Shown here: positions 25,001 to 41,589 of the stretch, in pieces | How positions within the stretch are numbered: the first letter of the stretch is position 1 | How the letters are laid out: each line of letters starts with the position of its first letter | From: Lawsonibacter sp. | GTDB taxonomy: Bacteria; Bacillota; Clostridia; Oscillospirales; Oscillospiraceae | DNA length: 50,157 bases | NCBI GenBank assembly: GCA_022791995.1 | Contig: JAAWAD010000060.1 | Span: forward strand, 1 to 50,157 | Reading direction: 5' to 3' | Made by a program: the position numbers and the translations under genes | The notes under the pieces: generated by a model | What the model saw: the letters and a program-made list of their open reading frames with translations, nothing else | What the model was told of the DNA's origin: nothing | The model's database searches: none

Positions 25001-25996
25001 CTACCGCTCCTCCCGGTAGTAGTTCAGCCCCAGTGCGGCGGGCTGGCCGGAGCCCTCCCGCTCCCGGATGGAGGAGGCCACCAGTACAATGGCCGTAATC
25101 AGGAAGGGCAGGGCCTTGAACAAATGGGGAGGGACGCTGTTCAGCCAGCCCAGGGCCCCGGGGAACGCGGCGGCCAGGGGCATGGCGTAAATTTGCAGAG
25201 TGTTGAAAAAGCCAAAGACCAGGGTCCCCAGGATCGCCAGGAGGGGGTTCCAGTTGGAAAAAATGACCAGGGCAATGGCAATCCAGCCATAGCCGTTGAT
25301 CCAGCAGTTGGAGCCCTCGAAGGAACCGCTCATATACAGCGCCATATAGAAGCCCCCCAGGCCCATAATGCCCGAACCGGCAACCAGGTGGACATACTTG
25401 TACAGGAGGATGTTCACCCCCACAGAATCGGCAGCGGCAGGGTTTTCCCCCACAGCCCGTAGCCGCAGGCCGGGCCGGGTAAAGGTGAGGTACCACCACA
25501 CCAGAAGGGCAATCCCCACCCCCAGATAAACCAGAGGACTGTGGGAAAACAGGGCCTTTCCCACCAGGGGCAGGCGGGACAGGCCAGGGATCTCCAAAGC
25601 GGCAAAGCCCTGGACCAGACCGTCACAGGCGGTCATCGTGGGCCAGCGGTCCCCCAGTCCCTTGCCCACAAAGAAGTACAGGCCCAGGCCGAAGGTGGTA
25701 ATGGTCAGACCGGTGACGTTCTGGTTGGCCTGGAGAGAGACCGTAAGCAGGGCGAAGAGCAGGCCACACAGGCCCGCTGACAGGAAGGCAACTGCCAAGC
25801 CCACGGAAATGCTGTTGGCGGCGCACCCGGCCAGATACCCAAAGATGGCCCCCACGGCCATGGTGCCCTCTACACCCAGATTCAGGCTTCCCGCTTTTTC
25901 CGTTAAAATTTCGCCCACTGTGCCATACAGCAGGGGAATATTCACCAGCACAATGTTGAAGAGAAACAGGGTGAGCACCTGCACAGAGTCGTTCAT
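25001..25996 (-). CDS. Nucleoside ABC transporter permease (second, NupQ-type)
   Basis: A 331-residue membrane protein of the BPD_transp_2 family with eight to nine hydrophobic segments. Family marks include LYGTVGEILTEKAGSLNLGVEG (residues 23-44) and NPAAADSVGVNI, as in the YufQ/NupQ permease of purine nucleoside transporters. It overlaps the preceding permease gene by 4 bases (25993-25996). Acts with the other permease, the double ATPase and the BMP lipoprotein to import nucleosides. Confidence 0.92.
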   Translation of the reverse strand: MNDSVQVLTLFLFNIVLVNIPLLYGTVGEILTEKAGSLNLGVEGTMAVGAIFGYLAGCAANSISVGLAVAFLSAGLCGLLFALLTVSLQANQNVTGLTITTFGLGLYFFVGKGLGDRWPTMTACDGLVQGFAALEIPGLSRLPLVGKALFSHSPLVYLGVGIALLVWWYLTFTRPGLRLRAVGENPAAADSVGVNILLYKYVHLVAGSGIMGLGGFYMALYMSGSFEGSNCWINGYGWIAIALVIFSNWNPLLAILGTLVFGFFNTLQIYAMPLAAAFPGALGWLNSVPPHLFKALPFLITAIVLVASSIREREGSGQPAALGLNYYREER

Positions 25997-27108
25997 TTCA
26001 AGCCCTCCTGTCTGCCCCGGCCCACCAGACGGAACCGTGTAAAGAAGTCGGCGGCCAGCACCGCAAAGAGAATGACGCCCTGGAGCAGGTCGGCAAAGTT
26101 GGCATCGATGGAGGCATAGCTGGTGCCCGCCACCTGGCTTCCGAACTGGAGGACGGTAATCAGCAGGGAGGCCACTACAATGCCCAGCGTATTCAGATTG
26201 GCCAGCCAGGCTACCACAATGCCCGTCCAGCCCACATCATTGGTGACAGCAGTGGACAGGGTTCCCGCCGAGGACACATAGAAGGCCCCCGCCAGCCCGA
26301 TCAGAGCGGCGGACAGAAACACTGTGCGGAGGATGATCCGTCCCACCCCCATACCGGCGTACCGGGCGGTGTTAGGGCTGTCCCCCACCACAGCAATCTC
26401 ATAGCCGTGCTTGGTGTACCGCAGATAGACGAAGAGGGCCGCACAGATGAAGGCCGCAGCCACCAGGGTCAGATTCAGATGAAAGTCCCCCAGGGAAAGC
26501 TCAAGCATCTGACCCCCGGCGGGAAATTTCTCAAACTTGGGCCGCTCCGACTGGGACGACAGGAAGAAGTTCCAGGTCCCCTTAGTCTCCCCCAGGAAGC
26601 GCAGCAGATACAGGGCGATGTAGTTCAGCATCAAGGTCATCAGGGTCTCGTTGGTCTGGAATTTCACCTTCAGCCAGGCCGCCAGCGCCCCATACAGCCC
26701 CCCTGCCGCCAGCCCCGCCAGCGACATGAGGAGGAGGACCAGCGGCTGGGGAAACACGTCCCCCAGCTTCAGGGCCACGGCGGCTCCGGCAATCGCCCCC
26801 ATGGTAAACTGCCCCTCGCCGCCGATATTCCAGAAGCGCATCCTGAATGCCAGCGACAGGGCCAGAGAGGTGAGGAGCAGGGGGACGAAGAGGCGGAGGA
26901 AGCCCTCCACCTGCTTGAAGGGGTAGCGGCTGCCGGGGATACCCAGGGTGAACATCCCCTTATAATAGGTGAGCGCAGGCACACCCAGCAGGGTCAGCAG
27001 CACTGTACCCACCAGCAGGGCCAGCACCACCGCCGCCACATAGGAGACCGCCAGCCGCAGGGGGCCTCCGCCCTCCCGCTTGACCACGCGAAACAGGGGC
27101 GCGTTCAT
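25993..27108 (-). CDS. Nucleoside ABC transporter permease (first, NupP-type)
   Basis: A 371-residue polytopic membrane protein, the longer of the permease pair. MRFWNIGGEGQFTMGAIAGAA (about residues 88-108) is the typical coupling/translocation segment of YufP/NupP proteins, followed by LMTLMLNYIALYLLRFL and YAGMGVGRIILRTVFLSAAL. It overlaps the ATPase stop by 4 bases and the next permease start by 4 bases, so all three are made in step. Confidence 0.92.
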   Translation of the reverse strand: MNAPLFRVVKREGGGPLRLAVSYVAAVVLALLVGTVLLTLLGVPALTYYKGMFTLGIPGSRYPFKQVEGFLRLFVPLLLTSLALSLAFRMRFWNIGGEGQFTMGAIAGAAVALKLGDVFPQPLVLLLMSLAGLAAGGLYGALAAWLKVKFQTNETLMTLMLNYIALYLLRFLGETKGTWNFFLSSQSERPKFEKFPAGGQMLELSLGDFHLNLTLVAAAFICAALFVYLRYTKHGYEIAVVGDSPNTARYAGMGVGRIILRTVFLSAALIGLAGAFYVSSAGTLSTAVTNDVGWTGIVVAWLANLNTLGIVVASLLITVLQFGSQVAGTSYASIDANFADLLQGVILFAVLAADFFTRFRLVGRGRQEGLK

Positions 27109-28679
27109 TCGTCCACCTCCTCAAATAAAGTATCCTTGGCAATTCCGGCGGGCTTGTCCTCGTACTTTCTCGAAAGGTCCAGGGCGCCGGCCATCATCAG
27201 ACCCAGCTCCTCCTTGGTGGTCTTGTGGGCGTGGACCACCCCCATCACCTTGCCGTGGCACAAAACCAGAATCTTGTCGCACAGGGCCATCATCACGTCC
27301 AGATCTTCCCCCACAAACAGGATCCCCACTCCATCCTGCTTCTGCTGATTCAGGATGCTGTAGATAGCATAGGAGGAATGGATGTCCAGTCCCCGCACCG
27401 GGTAAGCGGTGACCAGTACATTGGGCCCGGCCTGGATTTCCCGTCCCAGCAGTACCTTCTGCACGTTGCCCCCGGACAGGCGGCGCACCGGCGTCTCGGT
27501 GGAAGGAGTGACCACCTCCAGCTCTTGAATGATCCGCTGAGCGTCCCTCCGGCCCATTTTTCGGTCCACAAAGAGGCCTGGAGTGCTCTCATATTTTTTC
27601 AGCAGCATATTGTCCGTGATGGACAGGGAGGGCGCCAGGCCCATACCCAGACGGTCCTCGGGGATGAAGGACATAGAGATGCCCTTCTCCAAAATGGCCC
27701 TGGGAGACAGGCCCACAATGTTGTCCCCCTTGTGGATCATGGTGCCGCTTTCAATGGGGCGCAGACCGGCAATGGCCTCGCACAGCTCCTTCTGCCCACA
27801 GCCGGCGATGCCCGCCACCCCCAGGATTTCACCGCCCCGGATATAGAAGCTCACCTTGTCGATGGCCACCGCGCCCTCGTCCCCCAGGATGGTCAGATCC
27901 CGAATCTCCAGCAGGGGGTGGGTGTGCTCCACAAGGGGGCGGTCAATGTTCAGATCCACTCTCCGGCCCACCATATACTCGGTGAGCTGCTGCTCGTTGG
28001 TGGACGCAGTATCCACCGTGGCGATGTGCTCCCCCCGGCGGAGGATGGCCACCCGGTCAGAGATCTCCATCACCTCGTTCAGCTTGTGGGTGATAATGAC
28101 GATTGCGTGCCCCTCCGCCTTCATCCGGCGGAGCACGTCAAAGAGCTTTTTGATTTCCTGCACGGTAAGCACGGCGGTGGGCTCGTCCAGAATGATGACC
28201 TGCGCGCCGTAATACAGCACCTTGATAATTTCCAGGGTCTGCTTCTCCGACACGGCCATGTTGGCCACCCGCTTTCGAGGGTCAATTTCAAAACCGAATC
28301 TCCGGGCCATTGTGTCCACGGCGGCGTACCGATCCTTCTTCAGCAGCGGACCCTGACCCTCCGCCCCCAGCCAGATGTTGTCAGCAGCGGAGAACACATC
28401 CACAAGCTTGAAGTGCTGGTGAACCATGCCGATCCCCAACCGCTTGGCGTCCTCCGGGGCGCGGATGGCCGCAGGCTTCCCGCCCACCAGAATGGAACCG
28501 CTGTCCGGCTGATAGATACCCGACAGCATGTTCATCAGAGTGGTTTTGCCTGAGCCGTTCTCTCCCAGCAGAGCAAGGATTTCTCCCCGCTTCACGTTCA
28601 GGTTGATGTCCCGGTTGGCCACCACGCTGCCGAAGGCCTTGGTGATACCCCGCATCTCGATGGCGTACTGTTCCTCCAT
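27105..28679 (-). CDS. Nucleoside ABC transporter ATP-binding protein (NupO-type)
   Basis: A 524-residue double ABC protein of the sugar/nucleoside type. The first half has Walker A GENGSGKTT (about residues 38-46), and VILDEPTAVLT. The second half has the altered loop GIAGCGQKELCEAIAG in place of Walker A, LSGGNVQKVLLGREI as signature, and AYPVRGLDIHSS instead of Walker B; this asymmetry is normal for the family. ATG 28679 follows a GC-rich 177-base gap containing two strong hairpins, so it is made at a lower level than the binding protein. Confidence 0.93.
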   Translation of the reverse strand: MEEQYAIEMRGITKAFGSVVANRDINLNVKRGEILALLGENGSGKTTLMNMLSGIYQPDSGSILVGGKPAAIRAPEDAKRLGIGMVHQHFKLVDVFSAADNIWLGAEGQGPLLKKDRYAAVDTMARRFGFEIDPRKRVANMAVSEKQTLEIIKVLYYGAQVIILDEPTAVLTVQEIKKLFDVLRRMKAEGHAIVIITHKLNEVMEISDRVAILRRGEHIATVDTASTNEQQLTEYMVGRRVDLNIDRPLVEHTHPLLEIRDLTILGDEGAVAIDKVSFYIRGGEILGVAGIAGCGQKELCEAIAGLRPIESGTMIHKGDNIVGLSPRAILEKGISMSFIPEDRLGMGLAPSLSITDNMLLKKYESTPGLFVDRKMGRRDAQRIIQELEVVTPSTETPVRRLSGGNVQKVLLGREIQAGPNVLVTAYPVRGLDIHSSYAIYSILNQQKQDGVGILFVGEDLDVMMALCDKILVLCHGKVMGVVHAHKTTKEELGLMMAGALDLSRKYEDKPAGIAKDTLFEEVDE

Positions 28680-28700
28680 AGGCTCCCCCTTTCTTTTTTA

Positions 28701-28769
28701 CAGGGGCGAATGTCATCCGCCCGCCTGCTTCCAGGCACATGGCCGGCGGGCGCATGATATGCGCCCCTG
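28701..28769. repeat. Double palindromic repeat between BMP and ATPase genes
   Basis: CAGGGGCG (28701-28708) pairs with 28762-28769, and CGCCCGCC (28718-28725) with 28745-28752; the bases between them pair almost fully. Each half is also a palindrome by itself, around ATGTCAT and CATGATATG. It is a compact, mobile-looking extragenic element. Confidence 0.7.
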
Positions 28770-28807
28770 CACAGCTTCTCTCTCCCTCCGGGTTCTGCAT
28801 ACATGAA

Positions 28808-28839
28808 ACCGGGCCGGCCGGGTATCCGGCCGGCCCGGT
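28808..28839 (-). terminator. Strong hairpin after the BMP gene
   Basis: A perfect 14-bp all-GC-rich stem (28808-28821 with 28826-28839), loop GTAT, 18 bases past the stop. It has no T-run; it likely stabilises the binding-protein mRNA end and reduces read-through. Confidence 0.65.
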
Positions 28840-28856
28840 GCAATCGGGTCTTGCGA

Positions 28857-30182
28857 TCAGCCGGTGACGACGCCGGCCACGTTGTAATTCATGCTGCCCT
28901 TGATCACGCCGTCATCTACAGAGGGGCCGCCGGCGGGGACAATCTCGGGGTTGGCCATCTCTACCACCTCGCCGTCCTTCAGCTCATAGCCGTTGGACAT
29001 CAGAGGAGCCTCGGTCTGAACAACCTCCACCGAGCCGTCCTCCCCAATGTTGTAGCTCAGCTTTACGCCGGAGAACACATCCCAACTGCCGGAGACGATC
29101 AGCTCCCGTACCGCGTCCATCACGGCCTGGGTGTTGGGAGCGGCGATGGACTCGTTCAGGGGAGAGGCGTCCACAAAGCCCTCCGCCAGACCGGCATAGT
29201 AGGCGTTGCCGCCCATGGCGTCCACAAAATGGGAGCCGTCTACCTTCCCGTTCTGGTCGGTACAGCCCATGGCGGCGTGGATGGCGGTCTCATAGTACAC
29301 ATTCCAGTGCCAAATGGCAGAGGTCAGATGGGCAGCGGGGGCCTGCTCGGTCATGTCGGAGTTGTAGCCGCAACCGAAGGCGCTGTTCTCCGCGGCCACC
29401 AGCTGGGGCTGGGCGGAGTCGCAGTGCTGGGAGATGACGCCGCAGTGGTAGGTGTCAATCAGGGCCTGGGCAGCCTGACGCTCCAGGTTCTCATCCCCCC
29501 AGGTGTCGATCTTGTTCACATAGATCACCGCGTCGGGGTTCACCGACTGGGCCCCCAGGGCAAAACCGTTGATGCCCGAGCAGGTCTCGGCGTACTCCAG
29601 GTTATAGGCAGCCACATAGCCAATGGCATTGTTGCCAATTTCCAGGGACTTCATGCCCGCGGCGATACCTGCCAGATAGCGGGCCTGATAGATGCGGCCG
29701 AAGTAGTTATTGAAGTTGGTGTCGTTGCTCATATAGCCAGTGGCGTGGGAGAAGGCGATGTCAGGGTAGTCCTCCGCCTTATCATTCATGGCGTCGATAT
29801 AGCCGAAGGAGATGCCGAAAATAATATTGGCCCCTTGGTTTGCCAGGGTATCCACGGCGTTGGACACGGCGGTGTAGTCCTCCTTCACGTTGTCTACGAT
29901 CAGCAGGTCCGTGGCAGGGTCCAGGCCCAGGTTCTTCATGGCGGTGGTGATGCCGTTGTGGTGCTGGAAGGTGTACCCGGCGGTGTCGTTCTGGCTGTTG
30001 ATATAGATGGCGCCCACCTTAAAGCCGTCGCTCTCTCCCTCCGGGGCTGTGGCGGAGCCCTGCTGAGGAGCGGAGCCTCCGGCATTGCCGGAAGTCGATC
30101 CGCCGCTGGAATTGCCGCCGCCGCAGGCGCACAGAGAGAGGCTCATGGCCGCAGCTAGGGCCAGCGCAAGAAGTTTTTTCAT
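28857..30182 (-). CDS. BMP-family nucleoside-binding lipoprotein
   Basis: The substrate-binding protein of the nucleoside importer. MKKLLALALAAAMSLSLCAC is a lipoprotein signal with the lipid-bearing Cys at residue 20, followed by a Gly/Ser/Asn linker to residue about 50. The mature part is a PnrA/BmpA-type periplasmic fold: KVGAIYINSQNDTAGYTFQH, NIIFGISFGYIDAMNDKAEDYP, and FGRIYQARYLAGIAAGMKS are typical. ATG 30182 has AAGGAGG. It lies just after xpt, with an attenuator-like hairpin between. Confidence 0.93.
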   Translation of the reverse strand: MKKLLALALAAAMSLSLCACGGGNSSGGSTSGNAGGSAPQQGSATAPEGESDGFKVGAIYINSQNDTAGYTFQHHNGITTAMKNLGLDPATDLLIVDNVKEDYTAVSNAVDTLANQGANIIFGISFGYIDAMNDKAEDYPDIAFSHATGYMSNDTNFNNYFGRIYQARYLAGIAAGMKSLEIGNNAIGYVAAYNLEYAETCSGINGFALGAQSVNPDAVIYVNKIDTWGDENLERQAAQALIDTYHCGVISQHCDSAQPQLVAAENSAFGCGYNSDMTEQAPAAHLTSAIWHWNVYYETAIHAAMGCTDQNGKVDGSHFVDAMGGNAYYAGLAEGFVDASPLNESIAAPNTQAVMDAVRELIVSGSWDVFSGVKLSYNIGEDGSVEVVQTEAPLMSNGYELKDGEVVEMANPEIVPAGGPSVDDGVIKGSMNYNVAGVVTG

Positions 30183-30229
30183 TCTGTTTGTTCCTCCTTC
30201 AATGTCTCAAGTTCGTTTCATCTCTTAAT

Positions 30230-30257
30230 ATTAAAACCGAAAAGCTCCGGTTTTAAT
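30230..30257 (-). terminator. Hairpin spanning the xpt stop codon
   Basis: ATTAAAACCG (30230-30239) pairs with CGGTTTTAAT (30248-30257), loop AAAAGCTC. The xpt stop is in the stem, and the 3' arm is T-rich on the minus strand. A partial terminator before the BMP gene. Confidence 0.65.
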
Positions 30258-30828
30258 CTGCAAACTCCACACCGTGTGCTTCGCTCATCGCCTTCACCCG
30301 GGCCAGGGATTCCACTCGGACGCCCTGGGCCCGAATGCGGTCCCCCCCAGGCTGGAATGCCTTTTCAATGACGATACCCGCCCCCACCAGGACTGCGCCC
30401 GCCTGCTGAACCAAATCCAGCAGCCCCTCCAAAGCAGCCCCGTTGGCCAGAAAGTCGTCAATAATCAACACCCGGTCCTGGGGACCCAGAAACTGTCGGG
30501 AAACGATTACATCGTACACCCGCCCATGGGTAAAGGACTCCACCCGGGTGGAATACACCGCCCTGGCGATGTTCTTTGTCTGACTTTTTTTGGCAAAAAC
30601 AACCGAACAAGAAAAGAACTGCGCCGTGACACAAGCGATCCCGATGCCGGAGGCCTCGATGGTCAAAATCTTGTTCACGCCGCAGCCCTCAAAACGGTGC
30701 TGAAATTCCTTCCCGATTTCCTCAAACAGGGCGACATCCATCTGGTGGTTCAGAAAACTGTCCACCTTCAACACGTCGGTTCCCTTCACAACGCCGTCCC
30801 GCAGAATGCGGGCCTTGAGAAGCTCCAT
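30253..30828 (-). CDS. xpt: Xanthine phosphoribosyltransferase
   Basis: Xpt converts xanthine with PRPP to XMP for GTP supply. The 191-residue protein begins MELLKARILRDGVVKGTDVLKV, and has LTIEASGIGIACVTAQF, VVFAKKSQTKN, and the PRPP loop RVLIIDDFLANGAALEGLL. ATG 30828 has GAGGGCAG before it; longer frames upstream are out of keeping with the family. Gene order with the nucleoside ABC importer indicates purine uptake and salvage as one unit. A promoter with TTGCAT and TAAAAT lies at 30907-30935. I looked for a purine riboswitch in the leader and did not see one. Confidence 0.95.
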   Translation of the reverse strand: MELLKARILRDGVVKGTDVLKVDSFLNHQMDVALFEEIGKEFQHRFEGCGVNKILTIEASGIGIACVTAQFFSCSVVFAKKSQTKNIARAVYSTRVESFTHGRVYDVIVSRQFLGPQDRVLIIDDFLANGAALEGLLDLVQQAGAVLVGAGIVIEKAFQPGGDRIRAQGVRVESLARVKAMSEAHGVEFAD

Positions 30829-30865
30829 CTGCCCTCGCCGCCTTTCCCGAATCGCCCAAATCAGG

Positions 30866-30897
30866 ACAGCGGCCCATTGCCAAGGCCGCTGTTTTTT
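30866..30897 (+). terminator. Plus-strand terminator in the xpt leader
   Basis: ACAGCGGCC (30866-30874) pairs with GGCCGCTGT (30884-30892), directly followed by TTTTTT on the plus strand. No plus-strand gene precedes it; on the minus strand the same hairpin sits in the 5' leader of xpt. Confidence 0.65.
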
Positions 30898-30906
30898 GGA
30901 ATACAC

Positions 30907-30935
30907 GGCTATTTTACAGGATATTTCGAGCTTAT
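30907..30935 (-). promoter_or_regulatory. Promoter of xpt
   Basis: TTGCAT and TAAAAT with a 17-base spacer (AAGCTCGAAATATCCTG) on the minus strand, about 80 bases before the start codon. Confidence 0.65.
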
Positions 30936-30990
30936 GCAATCCTTTTCCACAAATTCTTTCTGTATAAAATGTACAATCTTTGACGGGAAC

Positions 30991-31020
30991 CCCCCCGGAT
31001 TTTTCCACAAATCCGGGGGG
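30991..31020 (-). terminator. Hairpin closing the Hsp90-TPR-like operon
   Basis: CCCCCCGGATTT (30991-31002) pairs exactly with AAATCCGGGGGG (31009-31020), 13 bases after the last stop codon. No T-run follows on the minus strand. Confidence 0.65.
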
Positions 31021-31033: not shown

Positions 31034-32194
31034 TCACAGAAGGTCCCTGCCGGCCAGAGCCAGGTTCTTTCGGAAGAAGTCGCTGCCGTTGCGGGCGTCG
31101 AAGGCCCGGCCGATTTTCTCCGCCTGGGCGTAGAACCAGTCAGCCAGAGCCTGGGGGGAGTAGACCCCGTCCTCCCGGTAGAGGGGGAAGGCCTCCGGCA
31201 GGGTGAGCTCCACTGTATCGGCCCGCTTGGCCAGCTGCCGGAAGCAGGTCCAGGCCCCCTTGTCGAAGTCATAGACCAGCTTCTGGTCCCACATGCCCAG
31301 GGACCACTCCAGCCGGGAGACCGCCAGGGTCACCGCCCGGTCCAAATCGGTGAAGGACCAGCACCGGAGCACCGCGCCGATGAAATCCAGGTCGCTCTTG
31401 TCCCGGTTGCCCTTGCGGTACAGGGCATTGGCCCGGGGCTCCGCCTGCTTCAGGTCCCCCCGGTCCAGGGCGTCCTCCAGGTAGTTCAGCCAGCACTTCT
31501 GGGGGGTGTCGGAGCAGGAGTTTGCCATGCGTCCGTCTTCAATGGGCCGGGCGTACTCGTCGGCGGCGGCCCGGTCCCCCATGAGCAGGCAGATGCGCAC
31601 CGCGTTGCTCCGTTCGCAGGCCCGACAGTCGGACACCCCGTCCCGACCGGTCTTCCAGAATTTCTGGAAATACTCAAAGGCCTTCTCTTTGTCAATATAC
31701 TGCCAGAACTGGCACATCTGCCACCAGTAGGTCCGCAGGCCGAGGTGGTACTCCTTCACCAGGGCGTAAAACTGGTCCATCAGCCCCTGCCACTGCTCCA
31801 TCGGGATCTGGGGCAGGCCGATGATGGGCTCAATCCCCATCTCCAGAATCATCAGGTGCATCTCCATAGCCCCCGTAAAGGAGCGGCGTTTCAGAGCCTC
31901 CGGGTGCTCCTGGTAGATGGCGTGGAACTCCGCCGCCGCCGGCATACACTTGGGCGGGTCGTCCCGGAAAGTGGCCTCGCAGGCGTACTCATAGCGGAAC
32001 ATGAGCCGCCAGAAGTGGTCCTGCTCCTCGTCCGCCTGCTGGATGGCGGGCAGCAGCGCGTCCATCCGGGCCTTGCCCCCGGGCAGATTGCGGATGATGC
32101 TCTCCAAAACATCCCCGTCAAACTGCCGCTTGGGCGGGCGGATCTTCTTCTTTCGCTCGGAGCCGTTGCCAATATCATTGAAATTATTTGCCAT
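31034..32194 (-). CDS. Helical-repeat (TPR-like) protein of the Hsp90 operon, paralogue 1
   Basis: No named family recognised. 386 residues; starts MANNFNDIGNGS at ATG 32194 inside the end of paralogue 2 (11-base overlap). The protein looks all-helical, with paired helices like TPR repeats (RYEYACEATFRDDPPKCMPA, EYHLGLRTYWWQMCQFWQYI, DALDRGDLKQAEPRANALYR). It shares with its two neighbours the CxxC in SDCRACERS (Cys190, Cys193), LPEAFPLYREDGVYSP (about 332-347) and the C-terminal FDARNGSDFF (365-374). A basic head (ERKKKIRPPKR, residues 13-23) is unique to it. It is last gene of the operon. Confidence 0.8.
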   Translation of the reverse strand: MANNFNDIGNGSERKKKIRPPKRQFDGDVLESIIRNLPGGKARMDALLPAIQQADEEQDHFWRLMFRYEYACEATFRDDPPKCMPAAAEFHAIYQEHPEALKRRSFTGAMEMHLMILEMGIEPIIGLPQIPMEQWQGLMDQFYALVKEYHLGLRTYWWQMCQFWQYIDKEKAFEYFQKFWKTGRDGVSDCRACERSNAVRICLLMGDRAAADEYARPIEDGRMANSCSDTPQKCWLNYLEDALDRGDLKQAEPRANALYRKGNRDKSDLDFIGAVLRCWSFTDLDRAVTLAVSRLEWSLGMWDQKLVYDFDKGAWTCFRQLAKRADTVELTLPEAFPLYREDGVYSPQALADWFYAQAEKIGRAFDARNGSDFFRKNLALAGRDLL

Positions 32195-33284
32195 TTCCGT
32201 CCCTCCAGATTTTCTCCGTACTCGAAACCGCCCGTTCCAGGTTCTCCTGGTACCATCTTGTTCCATTGCGGCGGTCAAAGGCTTTGGCGATCTTCTCTGC
32301 CTGTTTGCGGGCCCATGCTCCAAGGATGGGGGCGGTACAGGGGCCTTCCGGGGCCGACATATCTGCGGGAAAGGGTACGCGGGTCCCTTCCAGAGCCGGC
32401 GCGGTACACAAACACCAGATTCCTTTATAAAACTCATACATGGACTGTCTATCCCACAGGCCCTCGCTCCAGCCGATTCCTTGACGCAGCAGCTTCACCC
32501 CCTTTTTCGGGTCAGTGAAGGCCAGCCCCCGAATGGCGGCGGCCAGATAGAGCAAATCGCTGCGGTCGTGAAGGCCCTTGTACACCAGGGGAGACAGAAG
32601 GGGCTTCATGCTGTCCACATCCCCCTGGTCCAGGTAGTACTGAATAAAGCTGGCGTAGGTGTGGGAGGGAACCGAGTCGCACACGTACTGCCCCAAAAAG
32701 ATGGGTTTAGCCAGGTATTTGGCCTTCTCCAGGTCCCCGGTGTGGAGGTAGTACCACACCTTGAAGTCCTGCTCACAGGCCCGACAGGAGCTGAACTCGT
32801 CCCGGCAGGGCATCAGGAAGCGGGCAAAATACTGTTGGGACTTCTCCGCATCCACATAGAGATAAAACTCGCACAGGGCCATGTCCCGCCGGCGCATCCC
32901 GTCACCCACCCGCTTGACCACCCGCTCCAGCTGGTCCAGCAGGCCGATGCACACCGGCAGCTCCAGCTGGGGCAGAAGAACGCACAGCTCGGCGGCCTTG
33001 TGGGCCACTAGGTACTGGTTGAAGGCAGCCAGCTCGGCGCCCATGGCGTGGGGCTCCTCCTCAAACAGAGCGAAGAACTCGGCGCACACCGGCAGAATCT
33101 TAGGGCAGTCGTCGTAGAAGCCGGTCCAAAGGACCATGTCGGCCCGCAGGTTCTGCCGCCAGTAGGTGTCCCCGGACAGGTCGGCCTCTCGAATGGCTGC
33201 CAGATAGGCCTCGGTGCGGGCGGGGCCGGCCGGTACAGACTGGACCCGCTTCCGAACCGCCTCACCATCAAAGCTTCCACTCAA
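32184..33284 (-). CDS. Helical-repeat (TPR-like) protein of the Hsp90 operon, paralogue 2
   Basis: No named family recognised. 366 residues, similar over the full length to its neighbours: RADMVLWTGFYDDCPKILPV matches the first repeat of the others, the CxxC is Cys167/Cys170 in SSCRACEQD, and the C-terminus has FDRRNGTRWYQENL (336-349). The xPLYRxDG motif of the other two is lost here (FPADMSAPEGP). The start is TTG 33284, overlapping the stop of paralogue 3 as TTGA, with AGGGAGAG upstream; the rare start and overlap point to coupled, stoichiometric translation. Confidence 0.8.
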   Translation of the reverse strand: MSGSFDGEAVRKRVQSVPAGPARTEAYLAAIREADLSGDTYWRQNLRADMVLWTGFYDDCPKILPVCAEFFALFEEEPHAMGAELAAFNQYLVAHKAAELCVLLPQLELPVCIGLLDQLERVVKRVGDGMRRRDMALCEFYLYVDAEKSQQYFARFLMPCRDEFSSCRACEQDFKVWYYLHTGDLEKAKYLAKPIFLGQYVCDSVPSHTYASFIQYYLDQGDVDSMKPLLSPLVYKGLHDRSDLLYLAAAIRGLAFTDPKKGVKLLRQGIGWSEGLWDRQSMYEFYKGIWCLCTAPALEGTRVPFPADMSAPEGPCTAPILGAWARKQAEKIAKAFDRRNGTRWYQENLERAVSSTEKIWRDGNGK

Positions 33285-34375
33285 AATGGATCTCTCCCTT
33301 CCATCCGCTCCATCCCCTCCCTGGCCCTTTGCAGCAGGGTCTGGTGCCAGGGGGAACCGTTGCGGGTATCAAATTTCAGTCCGATGTCCAGGGCCATGCC
33401 GTAAAAGCCCATGGCCAGCTCCCCTGGGGCATACCGGCCGTCGGAGCGGTACAGGGGAAAGTCCTCCGGCAGACGCAGGGTAAGAAATCCTCCTCGCTTA
33501 TCCGCCTGAACGCAGTAGATCCAGGCCGCCCGGAACAGATAGAACCGCTGGGCTTGGTCCCACTGGGCCCACACCTTGTCCAGCCTCCGCTCCAGCAGCC
33601 CCAGGGCGGAGGCCGGACTGGAGAAGGCGTACCACCGGATGAGAGGGCAGACAAAATCCGTCTCCCCCTGTCCCAGGCAGACCTCCAGCTCCCGGGCAAA
33701 GCGCCGGGACTGGCCCCAGTGCCCCCGGTCTAGGGCCATTTCCAGCATACAGAACAGGGTGTTTCGGGGGTGGAGGTCACAGGTCAGGGTGCCATCCAGG
33801 ATAGGCCGGGCCTGACGGATGGCCTCCGGCCAGTCGTCCGTCAGGTAGGCGTAGTAGACAAGGGAGTGCTGAAGGCAGGCGGAGCAGTCGTGGATGGTGG
33901 CATTGGGCAGCTTGGCCGCCGCCTCAAAATGGGCCTGGGCCTCCCCCAGCCGGCCCTCGCGGACGTACTGAAAGCACAGGCGCTCATGGTAGTCCCGCAG
34001 GCTGAGGCGGTATTTCAGCAGGGCGGAGCGGAACTGCTCCGCCATCCGGTCCCGCTGGTCCAGGGGCAGCTGGGGCAGGCACTCCCACTGGGTCAGGGCC
34101 AGATAGAGCAGGTACAGATAGCACTGCCGGTACTGGGCGAAGGGGGTCTCCTCATACAGGGCAGCGTACTCTGACACCAGGGGCAGAACCTGGCCCAGGT
34201 CGTTGTACATGGCCAGCTCATAGGCCAGATTGTACCGGTTGGCCAGCTGCCAGCTCCGGGCCCTCCGCTGGTCCGCCAGCCTTACCGCCTCTCGCATGGC
34301 CTCCAGCCGCTCCCAGCTGCCCTTGGGCAGGTCGGCATAGCGGTGAAAGAGGAGCTCAAGCTCGTCCTTTCCCAT
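33281..34375 (-). CDS. Helical-repeat (TPR-like) protein of the Hsp90 operon, paralogue 3
   Basis: No named family recognised. 364 residues beginning MGKDELELLFHRYADLPKGS. Helical pairs follow (RYNLAYELAMYNDLGQVLPL, YHERLCFQYVREGRLGEAQA with a clear TPR-like Gly-x-Ala spacing, LEMALDRGHWGQSRRFAREL). It has the shared CxxC as Cys164/Cys167 (HDCSACLQHS), LPEDFPLYRSDGRYAP (302-317) and FDTRNGSPWH (335-344). ATG 34375 is 5 bases after the Hsp90 gene, with only a weak ribosome site, so its translation probably depends on the Hsp90 gene. Confidence 0.8.
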   Translation of the reverse strand: MGKDELELLFHRYADLPKGSWERLEAMREAVRLADQRRARSWQLANRYNLAYELAMYNDLGQVLPLVSEYAALYEETPFAQYRQCYLYLLYLALTQWECLPQLPLDQRDRMAEQFRSALLKYRLSLRDYHERLCFQYVREGRLGEAQAHFEAAAKLPNATIHDCSACLQHSLVYYAYLTDDWPEAIRQARPILDGTLTCDLHPRNTLFCMLEMALDRGHWGQSRRFARELEVCLGQGETDFVCPLIRWYAFSSPASALGLLERRLDKVWAQWDQAQRFYLFRAAWIYCVQADKRGGFLTLRLPEDFPLYRSDGRYAPGELAMGFYGMALDIGLKFDTRNGSPWHQTLLQRAREGMERMEGRDPF

Positions 34376-34380
34376 CTCAC

Positions 34381-36144
34381 TCAGTCAGGCTGTCCTGCCG
34401 CCCCGTCCAGCAGGACCAGCAGGGCCTCGTTCATGGAGGCCAGCTCTCCGCCCCGGAGCGGGTGCCCTCCGGCCAGCAGAGCCTGAACATAGAGCACCTG
34501 GGCCATGGCATACAGCGTGGCAGGACGTCTGGCCTGCACCAGCTTCTGCACCAGGGCGCTGTTCAGATTCAGATAGAGGCTGGCCAGGGGGCGCTCCTCC
34601 ACGCTGGACAGCAGGGACGACAGGGCGTCCGAGAAGATGCCGCTGCTGATATCCTGGGCGGACTGGACCTGGCGCAGGAACTGGACCTCGTCGCTCATGG
34701 CGTACAGAGAGGGCAGGCTGGCGGGGAGGAAGCGGCGCAGCTGCGCCTGACAGTCAAACTCGCCCAGGGCCAGGTTGGCCTGCCGTAGCAAAAGGGCGGC
34801 CTGCTGCTCCTCTATATAGGTGGCGTCATCCATCACCTCGAACAGGCTGTCCTCCCGCAGCGGCTCAATGGGCAGCCGGCAGCGCCTGGTCAGGGCGGAA
34901 ATCAGCTCCTGGTCGCTGGCATAGCCGGTGCAGATTAGCAGACGGCCCTGGGCCATGAAGATGGGCTTAAGCTGCTTGAATTTGGGAACGGAGCCCACCC
35001 AGAAGGCCTCTCCCACCGATTTCAGGGCCCGGCCGGTCATGGTCCCCTCGCTGGTCTCGAAGGGGAGGTAGTCAATAAACAGATCGAACAGCTCCTGATC
35101 CCAGATGGCCATCGCCTTGATGGCCTGGGAGTGGACGGCCACCAGCCGTTCCAGCCGGTCCGGGCTGCTCTGGGACAGGCGGGTGAGGTAGAGGCGCACC
35201 GCTTCCGAAAATTCCTGCCGGGCCGCGTCCAGCTCCTGATCCTCATAGAAGTCCTCCCGAGAGGCGGTGGGCCGCAGGGAGTTCGTGTTCAAAAAGCACC
35301 TCAGGAAAAAGGCCCAGGGAGGCAGCAGGGTGTCTCCATTTTCGGTGAGGAGCATCTGCTTCAGATAGATGCGGTGGCCGCTCTTTACCGAGCGGTCGGT
35401 GGCATAGGACAGTATATAGGCCACTCCCCGCAGATGCGGGGTATGGATGGGAATGGCGTCCAGGAATTCCTCATCAAAGAGCCACTGGCCAAAGGCCAGC
35501 AGCTGGCTGCGGCTGACCATGGAGAAGTCGGTGGGGATGTTGTTCAGCCGCTCTGGATTTCCAGCCAGGTAAATGGGCACTGGCAGAGCCAGACCGTAAT
35601 ACCGCACCAGCTCGGCCACCCGCTCCTCCTGAAAGTAGCCCTCCGCCCCCGGTTTGGCAGTGAGGATGACGGCGGTGCCCTCGGGGCACTCCTCCAGCGG
35701 GTCCAGAGTGTAGGTACCGTCGGGCAGGCCGGTCCACACATGGGCCTGGCCGCCCCCGGCCGGGCGGGTGTGGACCACAATAGTGTCGGATACCATAAAG
35801 CAGGACAGCAGGCCGATGCCAAATCGGCCGATGTAATCTTCAGGGATTTTTCCGTTCACCAGCTCCGTCTTGGAGGATTGTCCAATCACCGCCAGAAAGC
35901 GGTGGATGCCCTCCTGACTCAGGCCCGCCCCGTTGTCCCGAAACACCATGCGTTTCCCCGGGGTCACATGGATGGTAATCTGCCCCTTGGCCCAGCCGGG
36001 CTGCTCCCGCTGCCGCAAAGTAATGGCGTCCACGCCGTTTTGCAGCAGCTCCCGGAGAAAGACGTCCGGGCTCTTGTACAGGTGGTTGGACAGCACATCC
36101 AGCATCCCGCCCAGGTTGACTTGAAAGTGAAATGCTTCGCTCAT
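34381..36144 (-). CDS. Hsp90-family ATPase (short HtpG-like)
   Basis: A 587-residue Hsp90-type protein, shorter than HtpG (about 620-640). The N-terminal GHKL ATPase is complete: SPDVFLRELLQNGVDAI with catalytic Glu32 and Mg-binding Asn36, FRDNGAGLSQEGI (69-80), and GRFGIGLLSCFMV (106-118) as the lid/G2 loop, then PEGTAVILTAKPG. A middle domain follows, with NTNSLRPTASREDFYED like the client/ATP-contact region; the last 200 residues diverge and would hold the dimer part. No MEEVD-like end (ends GAAGQPD). ATG 36144 has AAGGAG. First gene of a four-gene operon with the three CxxC paralogues, from a good promoter at 36209-36237. Client is unknown. Confidence 0.9.
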   Translation of the reverse strand: MSEAFHFQVNLGGMLDVLSNHLYKSPDVFLRELLQNGVDAITLRQREQPGWAKGQITIHVTPGKRMVFRDNGAGLSQEGIHRFLAVIGQSSKTELVNGKIPEDYIGRFGIGLLSCFMVSDTIVVHTRPAGGGQAHVWTGLPDGTYTLDPLEECPEGTAVILTAKPGAEGYFQEERVAELVRYYGLALPVPIYLAGNPERLNNIPTDFSMVSRSQLLAFGQWLFDEEFLDAIPIHTPHLRGVAYILSYATDRSVKSGHRIYLKQMLLTENGDTLLPPWAFFLRCFLNTNSLRPTASREDFYEDQELDAARQEFSEAVRLYLTRLSQSSPDRLERLVAVHSQAIKAMAIWDQELFDLFIDYLPFETSEGTMTGRALKSVGEAFWVGSVPKFKQLKPIFMAQGRLLICTGYASDQELISALTRRCRLPIEPLREDSLFEVMDDATYIEEQQAALLLRQANLALGEFDCQAQLRRFLPASLPSLYAMSDEVQFLRQVQSAQDISSGIFSDALSSLLSSVEERPLASLYLNLNSALVQKLVQARRPATLYAMAQVLYVQALLAGGHPLRGGELASMNEALLVLLDGAAGQPD

Positions 36145-36208: not shown

Positions 36209-36237
36209 AGTATAGTACCAACGCGATGCAATTTCAA
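36209..36237 (-). promoter_or_regulatory. Promoter of the Hsp90 operon
   Basis: TTGAAA (36237-36232) and TATACT (36214-36209), 17-base spacer, minus strand. I see no CIRCE element (TTAGCACTC-N9-GAGTGCTAA) or CtsR repeat, so ordinary heat-shock control is not evident. Confidence 0.75.
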
Positions 36238-36309: not shown

Positions 36310-36354
36310 TTTTTTGATAAACTGTGCTGTGGATTTTTCTGGTTCAACCATTTT

Positions 36355-36394
36355 CGCCACACGATTGCCTTTCGGCAGTTGTGGGGCGTTTTTT
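36355..36394 (+). terminator. Leader terminator (attenuator) before the second MATE gene
   Basis: A 15-bp stem (36355-36369 with 36374-36388; one mismatch and two G-U pairs), loop TTTC, then TTTTTT (36389-36394). It lies between promoter and gene, so expression needs read-through. Confidence 0.8.
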
Positions 36395-36431
36395 ATCACG
36401 GTCTGCAGCCGGAATAGGAGGGGGTTCTGTA

Positions 36432-37802
36432 ATGAACGAAGCCTTTATGAAGGAACGGCCTGTTCTGCCGCTTCTGGCCTCTATGGCGCTGCCTACGATG
36501 ATTTCCATGCTGGTCAACTCTCTGTACAACATTGTAGACAGCTACTTTGTCGCCCAGATCAGTGAGGACGCCATGACGGCCCTCTCGCTGGTCTTTCCCC
36601 TGCAAAACTTCATCAACGCAGTGGCCATCGGCTTTGGAGTTGGCATCAGTGCGGTGATCGCCCTTCACCTGGGGGCGGGCAATCCAGAAAAGGCGGGGGC
36701 TGCCGCCACCCATGGCGCTGTGCTGTCCGGGCTCCACGGCATTGTGCTGGCTGTCGGCTGCATCGCGGTTATTCCATCCTTTCTTGGCATGTTCACCCAG
36801 TCGGAGCAGGTGCTAGCCTATGGACTGGAATACGCCCGGATTGTCTTCTCCTTTGCCCCCATCATCACCTTCTGTCTGGCTTATGAGAAAATTTTCCAGG
36901 CCATCGGCAGCATGAACACCACTATGCTTTGTCTGATGTGTGGCTGTGTCCTCAACATCCTTCTGGACCCGCTGCTGATCTTCGGATATGGCCCCTTCCC
37001 TGCCCTGGGCATCGCCGGAGCGGCCATCGCCACGGCCATCGGACAGACGGCCAACCTCGCCCTCTATCTGGTCATCTTCTGCCTCCGCCGCCCCGCCTCG
37101 GTGTGGTTCGCCCCCTCCCAGCTGCGCCCCGACCGGGAGGTGGACTGCCAGCTCTACGCCATCGGCATTCCCGCCGCTTTGAACATGGCCCTGTCCTCCC
37201 TTCTGGTCTCCGCCCTCAACGCCATTCTGGCCGTCTATGGGGAGCTCTACATTCTGGTGCTGGGCAGCTACTACAAGCTCCAGACCTTCCTCTACCTCCC
37301 GGCCAACGGAGTGATCCAAGGGATGCGGCCTCTCATTGGCTATAACTATGGGGCCAGAGAGCACCGCCGGGTCCGGCAGATCTACACCCTCACCCTGGCA
37401 ATGACGGGGAGTATCATGCTCTTCGGCACCATCATCTGCCTGTTGTGTCCCGGCTGGCTCATCGGCCTGTTCGCCACCAGCCCGGCGGCCATCCAGGCCG
37501 GACAGACCGCCCTGCGGATCATCAGCGCGGGATTCTTGATCTCCGCTGTCTCTGTCACCTCCTCCGGGGCTCTGGAGGGAATAGGAAAGGGACTGCCCTC
37601 TCTGTGCATCTCGCTGCTGCGGTATGTTGTGTTGATTATCCCCGCCGCCTTTTTGTTCAGCCGCCTCTGGGGCCCTGCCGGTGTGTGGTGCGCCTTCGGC
37701 GCGACCGAGTGGCTGGCAGCAGGGGCATCTATCCTGATCTGTAAGCGGACCGTTCTGCGGCCTGCCCCTGTCCTTGAGACAGCTTCCACAAAGGAGGAGT
37801 GA
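36432..37802 (+). CDS. MATE-family multidrug efflux protein (second)
   Basis: A 456-residue transporter with twelve predicted helices. NSLYNIVDSYFVAQISEDAM (about residues 29-48) is the MATE N-half mark and GVIQGMRPLIGYNYGAREHR (about 294-313) the C-half mark. ATG 36432 has AGGAGGGGG; a GTG at 36324 in the same frame lies in the leader and is not preferred. The stop is 3 bases before the UvrA-like gene, whose AAAGGAGG site is in the MATE end, so both proteins are co-translated. The leader attenuator suggests induction by an inhibitor of transcription or translation, or another small molecule. Confidence 0.93.
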   Translation: MNEAFMKERPVLPLLASMALPTMISMLVNSLYNIVDSYFVAQISEDAMTALSLVFPLQNFINAVAIGFGVGISAVIALHLGAGNPEKAGAAATHGAVLSGLHGIVLAVGCIAVIPSFLGMFTQSEQVLAYGLEYARIVFSFAPIITFCLAYEKIFQAIGSMNTTMLCLMCGCVLNILLDPLLIFGYGPFPALGIAGAAIATAIGQTANLALYLVIFCLRRPASVWFAPSQLRPDREVDCQLYAIGIPAALNMALSSLLVSALNAILAVYGELYILVLGSYYKLQTFLYLPANGVIQGMRPLIGYNYGAREHRRVRQIYTLTLAMTGSIMLFGTIICLLCPGWLIGLFATSPAAIQAGQTALRIISAGFLISAVSVTSSGALEGIGKGLPSLCISLLRYVVLIIPAAFLFSRLWGPAGVWCAFGATEWLAAGASILICKRTVLRPAPVLETASTKEE

Positions 37803-37805
37803 GCG

Positions 37806-40091
37806 ATGGAATTCACGCGAGAAGCGATTGAAATTTACGGGGCCGCCGAAAACAACCTGAAGCACATTGACCTGAAGATCCCCAAGGAGCAGCTGGTGGT
37901 ACTGGCCGGGGTGTCCGGCTCAGGAAAAAGTTCTCTGGCTTTCGACACCGTGGCGGCGGAGGCCAGCCGCCAGTGGCAGGAGTCCTACCCCCTCTTCCTG
38001 CGCACACGGCTGCCCCGGTACGAGCGCCCCGCCGTGGAGCGGATGGAGAATCTGACCCCCTGCATCGTGGTGGACCAGAAGCCCATCGGCAACAACGCCC
38101 GCTCCACTGTGGGCACCGCTACCGACGCCGCCCCTCTGGTGCGGCTCCTCTTCTCCCGGATCGGGGTCCCCTCCGCTGGCGGCTCCATGGCCTACTCCTT
38201 CAACCACCCCCATGGCATGTGTCCCGACTGCACCGGCCTGGGGGAGAAGCTGGAGCTGGACGAGGAGAAGATGTTCGACCTGGACAAGACGCTGAACGAG
38301 GGGGGCCTCCGGTTCAGCCAGTTCTCCGGGGGGAGCTGGCAGGAGTTCTACTACCGCTGCTGCCCCCTGCTGGACCCGGACAAGAAGCTGCGGGACTTTT
38401 CGGAGGAGGAGTGGAAGATCCTCCGCATCGGCCCGGACGAGCCGCTGAAGCTGGGCTTTCTCCGCCACAACACCGGCCAGGTCTCCCAGGTCCCCTACGA
38501 GGGGGTGGTGCCCCGGTTCCACCGGCTGTATATCAACCGGGACATCTCCGCCCTGAAAAAGTCCATCCAGGAGGAGGCCATGTCCTTCATGCTCCGCCGC
38601 CCCTGCTCTACCTGCGGGGGGAGCGGGCTGAACCCCAAGGCTCTGGAATCCAAAATTCACGGCCGGAACATCATGGACTACTACCAGATGCAGGTGAGCC
38701 AGCTGCTCCCCGTGCTGGAGGAGATCCAGGACCCTCTGGGGGCTTCCATCGCCCGGCAGCTGGCCTCCTGCCTGGAGCGGATGGTCACGGTGGGCCTGGG
38801 CTACCTCAGCCTGTCCCGCCGGACGGACACCCTGTCCGGGGGCGAGGCCCAGCGCCTGAAGATGGTGCGCCATCTGGGCAGCGGCCTGAGCAACCTCACC
38901 TATATCTTCGATGAGCCCACCGCGGGCCTCCACCCCGCCGACGCCAGCCGCATTGGCCGGCTGCTCCTGGCTCTCCGGGACAAGCACAACACGGTGCTGG
39001 TGGTGGAGCACAGCCGCCAGATGATCGCCCTGGCCGACCACATCATCGAGCTGGGTCCCCGGGCGGGGAGCCAGGGGGGCGAGATCGTCTATCAGGGGGA
39101 TCTGGCGGAGCTGAAGCACAGCGGCACCCTCACCGCCGAGGCCCTGCAGAAGCCTGTCCAGATCAACCCCGCCCCCCTGCCCTGGACGGAGGGCTTCCCC
39201 ATCGAACACGCCAGCCTCCACAACCTGAAGGACGTGAGCGTCACCATCCCCAAGGGGGTGCTGACCGCCGTGACCGGCGTGGCTGGCTCCGGGAAGAGCA
39301 CCCTCATCTGCCGGGAGTTCGTCCGCCGCTATCCCGAGGCCATCGTCCTGGATCAGCAGCCCATCGGCACCTCCAACCGCTCCACCCCCGCCACCTACAC
39401 CGGGGTGATGGACGAGATCCGCAAGCTCTTCGCCAAGGAGAACAAGGTCAGCGCCCAGTGGTTCAGCTTCAACTCCAAGGGGGCCTGCCCCGTGTGCAAG
39501 GGGAAGGGGGAGATCACCCCCGATGTGGCCTTCGCCGACCCCGTAGCCATCCGGTGCGAGGAGTGCGGCGGCCATCGGTACAACGCCACCGCCCTCCAGT
39601 ATACCTATCAGGGGAAAAACATCGAGGGGGTAATGTCCCTGACCATCGCCCAGGCGCTGGAATTCTTCTCTCAGCCGAAAATTTGCCAGCCCCTCCAGTG
39701 CCTTCAGGAGATCGGTCTGGGCTACATGACCTTGGGCCAGCCCACCAGCACCCTGTCCGGCGGAGAGGTTCAGCGCCTGAAGCTGGCCAGCGAGCTTCAC
39801 AAAAGCGGCAACATCTATATTCTGGATGAGCCCACCACCGGCCTTCACAGCCAGGACGTGTTTACCCTGCTGGCGCTGCTCCGCCGTCTGGTGGAACAGG
39901 GAAACACCGTGGTCGTGGTGGAGCACCGGCTGGAGCTGATTGCCGCCGCCGACTGGATTATTGATATGGGCCCGGAGGGGGGATATCAGGGGGGCGAGAT
40001 CCTCTTCACCGGCACCCCTGACCAGCTGGCCAAGGAGGGCGGCACCGAAACCGGACAATACCTGCGGCAATATTCCCTTCCAGAGGCATAA
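37806..40091 (+). CDS. UvrA-like ABC protein (drug-resistance type, UvrA2)
   Basis: 761 residues against about 940 for housekeeping UvrA. Two ABC units: Walker A GVSGSGKSS (35-43) and GVAGSGKST, signatures LSGGEAQR and LSGGEVQR, Walker B YIFDEPTAGLHP and YILDEPTTGLHS. Zinc-type CxxC pairs are kept (CPDC, CSTCGGSGL, CPVCKGKG, CEECGG). The shortened region between the first Walker A and CPDC indicates loss of most of the UvrB-binding part. Such class II UvrA proteins go with antibiotic producers or resistance to DNA-binding drugs (DrrC type). Coupling to a MATE pump supports a drug-protection role over repair. Confidence 0.9.
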   Translation: MEFTREAIEIYGAAENNLKHIDLKIPKEQLVVLAGVSGSGKSSLAFDTVAAEASRQWQESYPLFLRTRLPRYERPAVERMENLTPCIVVDQKPIGNNARSTVGTATDAAPLVRLLFSRIGVPSAGGSMAYSFNHPHGMCPDCTGLGEKLELDEEKMFDLDKTLNEGGLRFSQFSGGSWQEFYYRCCPLLDPDKKLRDFSEEEWKILRIGPDEPLKLGFLRHNTGQVSQVPYEGVVPRFHRLYINRDISALKKSIQEEAMSFMLRRPCSTCGGSGLNPKALESKIHGRNIMDYYQMQVSQLLPVLEEIQDPLGASIARQLASCLERMVTVGLGYLSLSRRTDTLSGGEAQRLKMVRHLGSGLSNLTYIFDEPTAGLHPADASRIGRLLLALRDKHNTVLVVEHSRQMIALADHIIELGPRAGSQGGEIVYQGDLAELKHSGTLTAEALQKPVQINPAPLPWTEGFPIEHASLHNLKDVSVTIPKGVLTAVTGVAGSGKSTLICREFVRRYPEAIVLDQQPIGTSNRSTPATYTGVMDEIRKLFAKENKVSAQWFSFNSKGACPVCKGKGEITPDVAFADPVAIRCEECGGHRYNATALQYTYQGKNIEGVMSLTIAQALEFFSQPKICQPLQCLQEIGLGYMTLGQPTSTLSGGEVQRLKLASELHKSGNIYILDEPTTGLHSQDVFTLLALLRRLVEQGNTVVVVEHRLELIAAADWIIDMGPEGGYQGGEILFTGTPDQLAKEGGTETGQYLRQYSLPEA

Positions 40092-40093
40092 GT

Positions 40094-40135
40094 AAAGGAA
40101 GGACCCTGTGAAACCACAGGGCCCTTCCCTTTTTA
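40094..40135. terminator. Two-way terminator between UvrA-like and third MATE genes
   Basis: GGAAGGACCCTGTG pairs with CACAGGGCCCTTCC (one mismatch), loop AAAC, flanked by A-rich and T-rich runs (CTTTTTAA), between converging genes. Confidence 0.8.
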
Positions 40136-41500: not shown

Positions 41501-41560
41501 CCAGGCCGGCCTCCTTATACAAATTGACAGCGGAGATTCCCGCCGCCGGAGTTCCAGAGT

Positions 41561-41589
41561 ATTATAGGAGGCGGCAGCCCTTCTGTCAA
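41561..41589 (-). promoter_or_regulatory. Promoter of the third MATE gene
   Basis: TTGACA (41589-41584) and TATAAT (41566-41561), 17-base spacer: full consensus on the minus strand. Confidence 0.85.

Follow-up and report, generated by a model that had tools for sequence, protein, structure and literature searches.

A non-canonical bacterial Hsp90 and the TPR-like three-cysteine proteins encoded beside it

Introduction

Do bacterial Hsp90 chaperones have dedicated co-chaperones? The question is raised by a 50,157-nucleotide stretch of DNA from Lawsonibacter sp. (assembly GCA_022791995.1, contig JAAWAD010000060.1; the whole stretch is called the window here), in which a gene for an Hsp90-family ATPase is followed by three genes for mutually related proteins, each with a CxxC motif. 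Eukaryotic Hsp90 works with several tetratricopeptide repeat (TPR) co-chaperones, of the Hop, FKBP51 and PP5 type. A sequence-only reading of the window had proposed that the four genes encode a bacterial Hsp90 with dedicated TPR-like partners. We find that the Hsp90 subfamily in question (NCBI model NF010683) nearly always adjoins, in the genomes sampled, a TPR-like partner with a CxxC and a third conserved cysteine (together the Cys3 site); the pair is real, is conserved in our samples and is more general than that reading said.

The literature gives the question its weight. According to Press et al. (2013, PMC3708813), who set the B and C clades of bacterial Hsp90 aside, bacteria had at that time no identified obligate co-chaperone of Hsp90; a 2021 paper (PMC8082187) states that Hop, Aha1 and p23 have no apparent orthologues in eubacteria. 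The direct association of mycobacterial HtpG with DnaJ2, reported in 2023 (PMC10269695), counts against a clean blank. Extracts from a group of papers (PMC1525184, PMC3603443, PMC8082187, PMC11687934 and PMC3708813) add that bacterial Hsp90 paralogues are ancient, that Streptomyces coelicolor has two HtpG genes (638 and 615 amino acids) and that by 2012 there was no evidence for a specific function of a streptomycete HtpG. Nucleotide and drug binding have been described for the only Hsp90 of Streptomyces hygroscopicus (PMC3603443).

Results

The four genes are co-directional and tightly packed on the minus strand at 31034..36144, in the order Hsp90 (34381..36144, 587 amino acids, ATG start), P2 (33281..34375, 364 amino acids), P3 (32184..33284, 366 amino acids, with a TTG start that overlaps the stop of P2) and P4 (31034..32194, 386 amino acids). 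Their spacings, in that order, are +5, -4 and -11 bases, and the coordinates bear out the row of four genes as it was originally described. Longer starts in the list of open reading frames (ORFs) would give 672 amino acids for Hsp90 and 467 for P4; the shorter starts fit the relatives.

By its model scores the window Hsp90 is a member of a named, little-studied subfamily and not a canonical HtpG. It reaches 581.9 bits against NF010683 (PRK14083, "HSP90 family protein"; cut-off 455) over residues 6-584, and 156.4 bits against the canonical HtpG model (NF003555, PRK05218; cut-off 371), in an alignment that stops at residue 367. Residues E32, N36, D70 and R296, which we take to be those of ATP binding and hydrolysis, are identical in 11/11 aligned members of the subfamily, and the GxG motif is present in 7/7; the full GHKL ATPase claimed for the first gene is borne out by this conservation. 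A local hhalign comparison of the subfamily with 26 intact HtpG-type Hsp90s from the same bacterial family gave 100% probability and 22% identity. Because this profile alignment spans approximately residues 2-579 and matches the end of the Hsp90 C-terminal domain and not its middle, the protein looks like a complete Hsp90 with an unusual C-terminal domain. The C-terminus, called shorter and diverged in the sequence-only reading, is diverged in the middle of the domain; its end is kept, with the stretch LYLNLN...LYVQALL.

Compared with canonical HtpG, the window Hsp90 shares the N-M-C layout by profile alignment, whereas it scores under the HtpG cut-off, has diverged in the middle of the C-terminal domain and belongs to a subfamily with a neighbour for which no counterpart was found at 28 loci taken as HtpG in the DNA examined. 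A second Hsp90 of the window genome, on another contig (G000:C91) and truncated by its end, scores 164.7 bits against NF010683, which is below the cut-off, and is probably HtpG. A separate canonical HtpG is over its cut-off in 7/7 other genomes that were scored with the HtpG model: six that carry the pair, and G189, where the partner follows a partial Hsp90 at the edge of a contig. Among 14 control genomes, two have an NF010683 Hsp90 (Corynebacterium glutamicum and Deinobacterium chartae). The subfamily is probably, from published descriptions, one of the bacterial hsp90B or hsp90C clades, the long-branching non-A Hsp90s of Press et al. (2013, PMC3708813). To call it unstudied would be too strong, as the Hsp90 of S. 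hygroscopicus could belong to it. The Hsp90s have cysteines of their own: C115, at GLLSCF, is present in 11/11 aligned members and the position of C283 is a cysteine in 10/11, where HtpG-type sequences, by eye, show A and G.

The partner follows this subfamily from genome to genome. E-value limits differed between searches, being 1e-30 (200-genome sample) or 1e-100 for Hsp90 and 1e-3 or 1e-10 (family f33) for the partner. In the bacterial family of the window, 2/200 genomes have an Hsp90 over the NF010683 cut-off and 3/200 have a partner by a three-sequence model (A1), namely the same two and G189. Across a sample of the phylum, Hsp90 and partner were each detected in 6/398 genomes, and the six are identical. 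In a second family of the same phylum (f33, probably Paenibacillaceae; 148 genomes), 53 genomes have the Hsp90, 53 the partner and 52 both (Fisher p 9e-38 on the 52/1/1/94 table, a value that ignores shared ancestry), and in 52/52 pairs the partner lies on the same strand, 12-48 bases downstream as measured between match ends. The one genome counted as having a partner only, G603, is explained by a shortened Hsp90 of the subfamily: an adjoining frame of 532 amino acids (L081 4379-5974) has lost part of the middle domain and therefore fell below the E-value limit. The possibility that the paralogues would turn up mostly away from Hsp90 genes, named by the sequence-only reading as a point that would tell against it, met with the opposite outcome, and the counts in both samples rule out that the pair is peculiar to this window.

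Beyond the samples, the pair was found in three contigs of Oscillospiraceae (L037-L039), in Paenibacillus cellulosilyticus, in both Listeria monocytogenes records and all three Streptomyces records that have this Hsp90, and in a faecal scaffold (L073), whose GC-rich frames and relatives suggest an actinobacterial origin; coverage of Actinomycetota consists of plasmid-collection records and one scaffold. A second partner copy in genome G050 lies beyond a gene on the opposite strand. At the 28 loci whose Hsp90 scores below the cut-off and was taken as canonical HtpG, 26 of them with an intact HtpG-type frame, no partner was found within at most 1.5 kb past the match, part of which is HtpG itself.

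P2, P3 and P4 form, on the evidence of their sequences, a single family that lies outside the models of Pfam and NCBIfam. The other two paralogues are 25 and 34% identical to P2 in an alignment, and phmmer in a small ORF database relates the three at E 1.7e-23 to 4.2e-62, which upholds their kinship as first described. No Pfam family matches any of them at E 1, and NCBIfam yields one chance-level match to P4 only; a PHROG family annotated as of unknown function, phrog_34905, matches all three (E 1.7e-15 to 6.6e-12). They are the sole members detected in the window genome. Chance or mis-called frames are ruled out, since each retrieves both of its paralogues with E values no higher than 1.7e-23 and fits the family model, which includes P2-P4 themselves, at E 5e-118 or better.

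Across 66 partners (20 picked by hand and 46 retrieved with a model of those 20, and so not independent; matches of at most 250 residues were dropped), the only positions identical in 66/66 are three cysteines, C190, C193 and C227 of P4. Next come R368 and A54 (65/66) and N369, P217, P231 and A192 (64/66), all in P4 numbering. The spacing from the CxxC to the third cysteine is 32 in 59/66 partners and 31, 33 or 34 in the rest. Among the 66 there is no invariant fourth metal ligand; the acidic neighbours D189 and E194 are common. The CxxC singled out at the start is thus present in every partner, as DCSACL, SCRACE and DCRACE in P2, P3 and P4, and was an incomplete description, the third invariant cysteine having been missed. 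The other motifs reported from the window were found again, FD(T/R/A)RNG near the end of all three paralogues and LPE(D/A)FPLYR(S/E)DG(R/V)Y in P2 and P4. On the minus strand, with coordinates derived by hand, the CxxC codons lie at 33875..33886 in P2 (Cys 164 and 167; third codon, Cys 199, at 33779-33781), at 32775..32786 in P3 (third codon 32679-32681) and at 31616..31627 in P4 (third codon 31514-31516).

The family is best described as TPR-like, a description that profile comparison supports. Compared by hhalign with three consensus TPR repeats, the 66-member profile gave a probability of 93.3%, E 2.7e-7 and a score of 47.9 over 95 columns; 20 column-shuffled control profiles reached at most a score of 14.0 and 0.3%. 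This match supports helical character for the middle part of the partner only. In it the CxxC falls in a lengthened linker before repeat 2 and the third cysteine in a lengthened linker before repeat 3. In a TPR superhelix the linkers of adjacent repeats line up along a common edge, so that all three cysteines are probably near one another in the folded protein. Single members agree: the Listeria partner passes the gathering score of TPR_8 (26.1 against 25.7 bits), and the Streptomyces partner, of 1033 amino acids, has the partner domain first and TPR repeats after it. Actinomyces oris and the faecal scaffold L073 likewise have long forms with extra TPR-matching parts. In the A. oris record (L070) the annotation places a VapC-type toxin gene some 3.7 kb from the partner.

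Three partner genes behind one Hsp90 are unusual, as 48/52 f33 genomes have one copy and 4/52 have two; the f33 search gave 57 partner copies in all, of which a subset was retrieved. In a tree of the family the window copies are dispersed, P4 grouping with copies from L037, L039 and L050, P2 with that of G189 and P3 forming a long branch beside the P4 group. Partner variation shows in L037 and L038, whose Hsp90s are 96% identical and whose single detected partners belong to different types (29% identity). Their DNA is 93.6% identical from about 100 bases upstream of Hsp90 to about 100 bases past the gene. Between Hsp90 and partner both have the beginning of a small lipoprotein-like gene, shortened in L038. 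Either an exchange of partners or the loss of different members of an ancestral set may account for the difference. The genes are, by codon comparison, under purifying selection, because the non-synonymous rate (dN) is well under the synonymous rate (dS) in 7/9 pairs; in the other two dS could not be computed, and several values of dS are near or over 1, that is, near saturation. Partner dN is about twice Hsp90 dN in L045/L047 (0.069 against 0.036) and in window/L037 (0.28 against 0.15), and equal to it in L039/L050 (0.21 and 0.20).

A two-gene arrangement of similar kind occurs in gammaproteobacteria, where records of Pseudomonas aeruginosa, Xanthomonas vasicola and Salmonella Infantis have an Hsp90-like gene and, directly after it, a gene of 764-774 amino acids. 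The Pseudomonas and Xanthomonas partners have TPR matches below the gathering scores, and three aligned gammaproteobacterial partners have a CxxC; a relative in Nonomuraea that has no adjacent Hsp90 lacks it. In Escherichia coli, 245/5426 complete genomes match a 4-kb query, which takes in the whole Hsp90-like gene and the greater part of its neighbour, over at least 80% of its length, and in one example read the pair lies between fdhD and a YiiG-family gene. The layout is that of the NF010683 pair, whereas the Pseudomonas Hsp90-like protein, the sole gammaproteobacterial one scored, is below the NF010683 cut-off at 292.9 bits, and the partners are not significantly alike: hhalign gives 5.6% and E 0.007, although CxxC aligns with CxxC. 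Since this profile match is not significant, we do not count the gammaproteobacterial partner as a member and keep the pair apart from the family; judged by its sequences it may be a parallel system. The copies in Salmonella Infantis and E. coli (L074 7974-12121 and L079 9001-13144, with second genes of 768-769 amino acids) look like an accessory chaperone-like locus. Among other Hsp90-like loci, a Pseudanabaena plasmid (L059 7950-12813) encodes a protein of 877 amino acids with an extra C-terminal part and 382.9 bits to NF010683, below the cut-off, which adjoins genes annotated as TIR-domain and TPR protein, and the IMG/VR contigs L075 and L076 have frames of 1060 and 1079 amino acids with an Hsp90-like ATPase part.

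Around the operon, a promoter-like site (TTGAAA-17-TATACT, 36209..36237, minus strand; a consensus match only) precedes the start of Hsp90 by 65 bases. A 12-bp G+C-rich hairpin directly after P4 (30991..31020, minus strand; z -3.81 for a 66-base stretch, no clear T tail) is a possible operon end, which a terminator scan did not pick up. The CIRCE heat-shock operator has no exact match anywhere in the window. An Rfam scan of the window returned a single match, distant from the operon, to a T-box leader at 12022-12260 on the plus strand (102 bits; gathering score 93). Downstream, by eye, the minus strand of 25001-31000 carries a gene resembling that of a xanthine phosphoribosyltransferase, together with a set of BmpA/ABC nucleoside-type transporter genes; that the operon is part of these xpt-like and transporter genes is unlikely, as such genes are not beside the pair in the relatives read by eye. 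On the other side, 36324-41593 holds, again by eye, a MATE-like efflux gene that diverges from the operon, then a UvrA-like ABC ATPase of 761 amino acids and, on the minus strand, another MATE-like gene.

Discussion

What might the pair do? We consider it moderately probable, reasoning from sequence and gene order, that the four genes form one chaperone module, in which a non-canonical, ATPase-competent Hsp90 is served by dedicated TPR-type co-chaperones or client adaptors whose Cys3 site would hold a metal or serve as a thiol switch. The partners would bind this Hsp90 and then bring or hold clients, or tune its ATPase cycle. Since the cysteine-bearing linkers are about one TPR period apart, the CxxC and the third cysteine would face each other on an edge of the solenoid, where they could be joined by a metal (Zn) staple or work as a thiol switch. 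With a number of diverged partners, a single Hsp90 could handle several classes of client, as eukaryotic Hsp90 does through its various co-chaperones. The likeness to the eukaryotic system lies in an Hsp90 with TPR proteins, several to one Hsp90; the differences are that here the Hsp90 has no MEEVD, the partners have Cys3 loops and the genes form one operon. The adjacency of the pair and the TPR match with its shuffled controls support the central proposal of the sequence-only reading, dedicated TPR-like partners of a bacterial Hsp90, as far as sequences can.

Several findings weigh against such a module. The Hsp90 tail of the window reads ...LLDGAAGQPD and, as in the aligned relatives, does not end in MEEVD; in the respects covered here, the partner is therefore no TPR-clamp co-chaperone of the eukaryotic kind. 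P2, P3 and P4 alone reach no Pfam TPR model over its gathering score, three of the 16 members of alignment A4 reach E 0.1 or better with TPR_8, and most partners reach no TPR model alone. The partner profile matches solved structures weakly (best E 0.0034, to a designed protein, followed by designed TPRs at 0.06-0.09), and that search returned no eukaryotic TPR co-chaperone. As to linkage, genome G613 of f33 is a true exception, an Hsp90 with no partner within the 10 kb read; A. oris has a partner of 1011 amino acids with all three cysteines (L070 5881-8916) but no Hsp90 beside it or, at E 1e-40, anywhere in that record; and in L037 the lipoprotein-like gene separates Hsp90 from partner. Adjacency alone, moreover, cannot separate a co-chaperone from a client.

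This last point leads to the best of the other explanations, namely that the partners are obligate clients, and the Hsp90 a maturation chaperone dedicated to TPR proteins that have a Cys3 metal or Fe-S site and some other job. It accounts equally for co-occurrence and adjacency, for the extra diverged copies and for the invariant Cys3 site, and the A. oris partner without an adjacent Hsp90 fits it. We nevertheless think it rather unlikely, as TPR solenoids seldom require a dedicated chaperone and the extra TPR-matching parts of the Streptomyces, A. oris and faecal-scaffold members look scaffold-like and not enzyme-like.

A redox- or metal-sensing stress module, in which the Cys3 protein would sense oxidants or metal and switch the Hsp90 on or off, overlaps with the co-chaperone module and draws on the same striking fact, that nothing except the three cysteines is identical in all 66 partners; the Listeria locus, moreover, adjoins the ferritin-like gene fri. 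Its probability is small. The neighbours beyond the pair vary by lineage (by eye, from annotation and ORFs), no regulator was seen to accompany the pair at the loci read, and the family is common to gut Oscillospiraceae, Paenibacillus and Streptomyces. Gut Oscillospiraceae are anaerobes.

A biological-conflict system, for instance against phages, which the sequence-only reading had also entertained, finds little support and is very improbable. Its main argument is that PHROG families match both components, phrog_32952 the Hsp90 (E 4.9e-94) and phrog_34905 all three partners, both families being of unknown function; the patchy distribution (2/200 and 53/148 genomes over the cut-off), the exchange or loss of partners behind a near-identical Hsp90 and weak matches between PADLOC models and the Hsp90 GHKL part also fit. 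Against it, PADLOC matches neither P2-P4 (at E 1) nor three relatives (at E 0.001), viral contigs yielded no partner with two single-protein queries, whose reach is close relatives, and the two annotated records show neither a nuclease nor a toxin nor a TIR gene beside the pair, the other loci having been read as ORFs. The phage-collection records with a partner are in 5/5 cases unannotated scaffolds of 4.4-6.6 kb, of which four are labelled Listeria phage and are perhaps host DNA. No phage or prophage source of the two PHROG families was found. Phage or plasmid cargo has little support: the two Listeria "plasmid" records look chromosomal (one is 2.9 Mb long, and the other, of 394 kb, carries housekeeping genes), though the PHROG families match both proteins.

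If the partners are co-chaperones, a wider view suggests itself, which we hold tentatively and regard as possible: that bacteria evolved an Hsp90 co-chaperone system of their own, from an ancient second Hsp90 and an obligatory TPR partner. The Cys3 site across two repeats would gate the hand-over of clients by metal or disulfide, the range of clients would shift through duplication, loss and exchange of partners while the Hsp90 stayed conserved, and the gammaproteobacterial pair would count as a branch of this invention, either parallel or distant.

Conclusions

The claim that no system of this make-up has been described stands in part. The Hsp90 belongs to a subfamily already known by name, and its partners occur in several lineages, usually as one copy per Hsp90; the open literature searched gave no description of a pairing with TPR proteins. 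The name and description of the NF010683 model are silent on a partner, so the conserved neighbour is an addition made here. Among the matches listed in a search of titles and abstract openings in the open literature, with subscription journals mostly outside it, there was no paper that pairs this Hsp90 subfamily with a TPR partner, and lmo0942 or PA1068 had incidental mentions only in the parts seen (PMC9995270, PMC3534079, PMC10393277). What is new, within the literature searched, is the linked Cys3 TPR partner family. The Hsp90 subfamily and the TPR family linked to it are a direct candidate for deciding if bacterial Hsp90s have dedicated co-chaperones and in what way these are used, and the pair is a small system in which that question can be tested.

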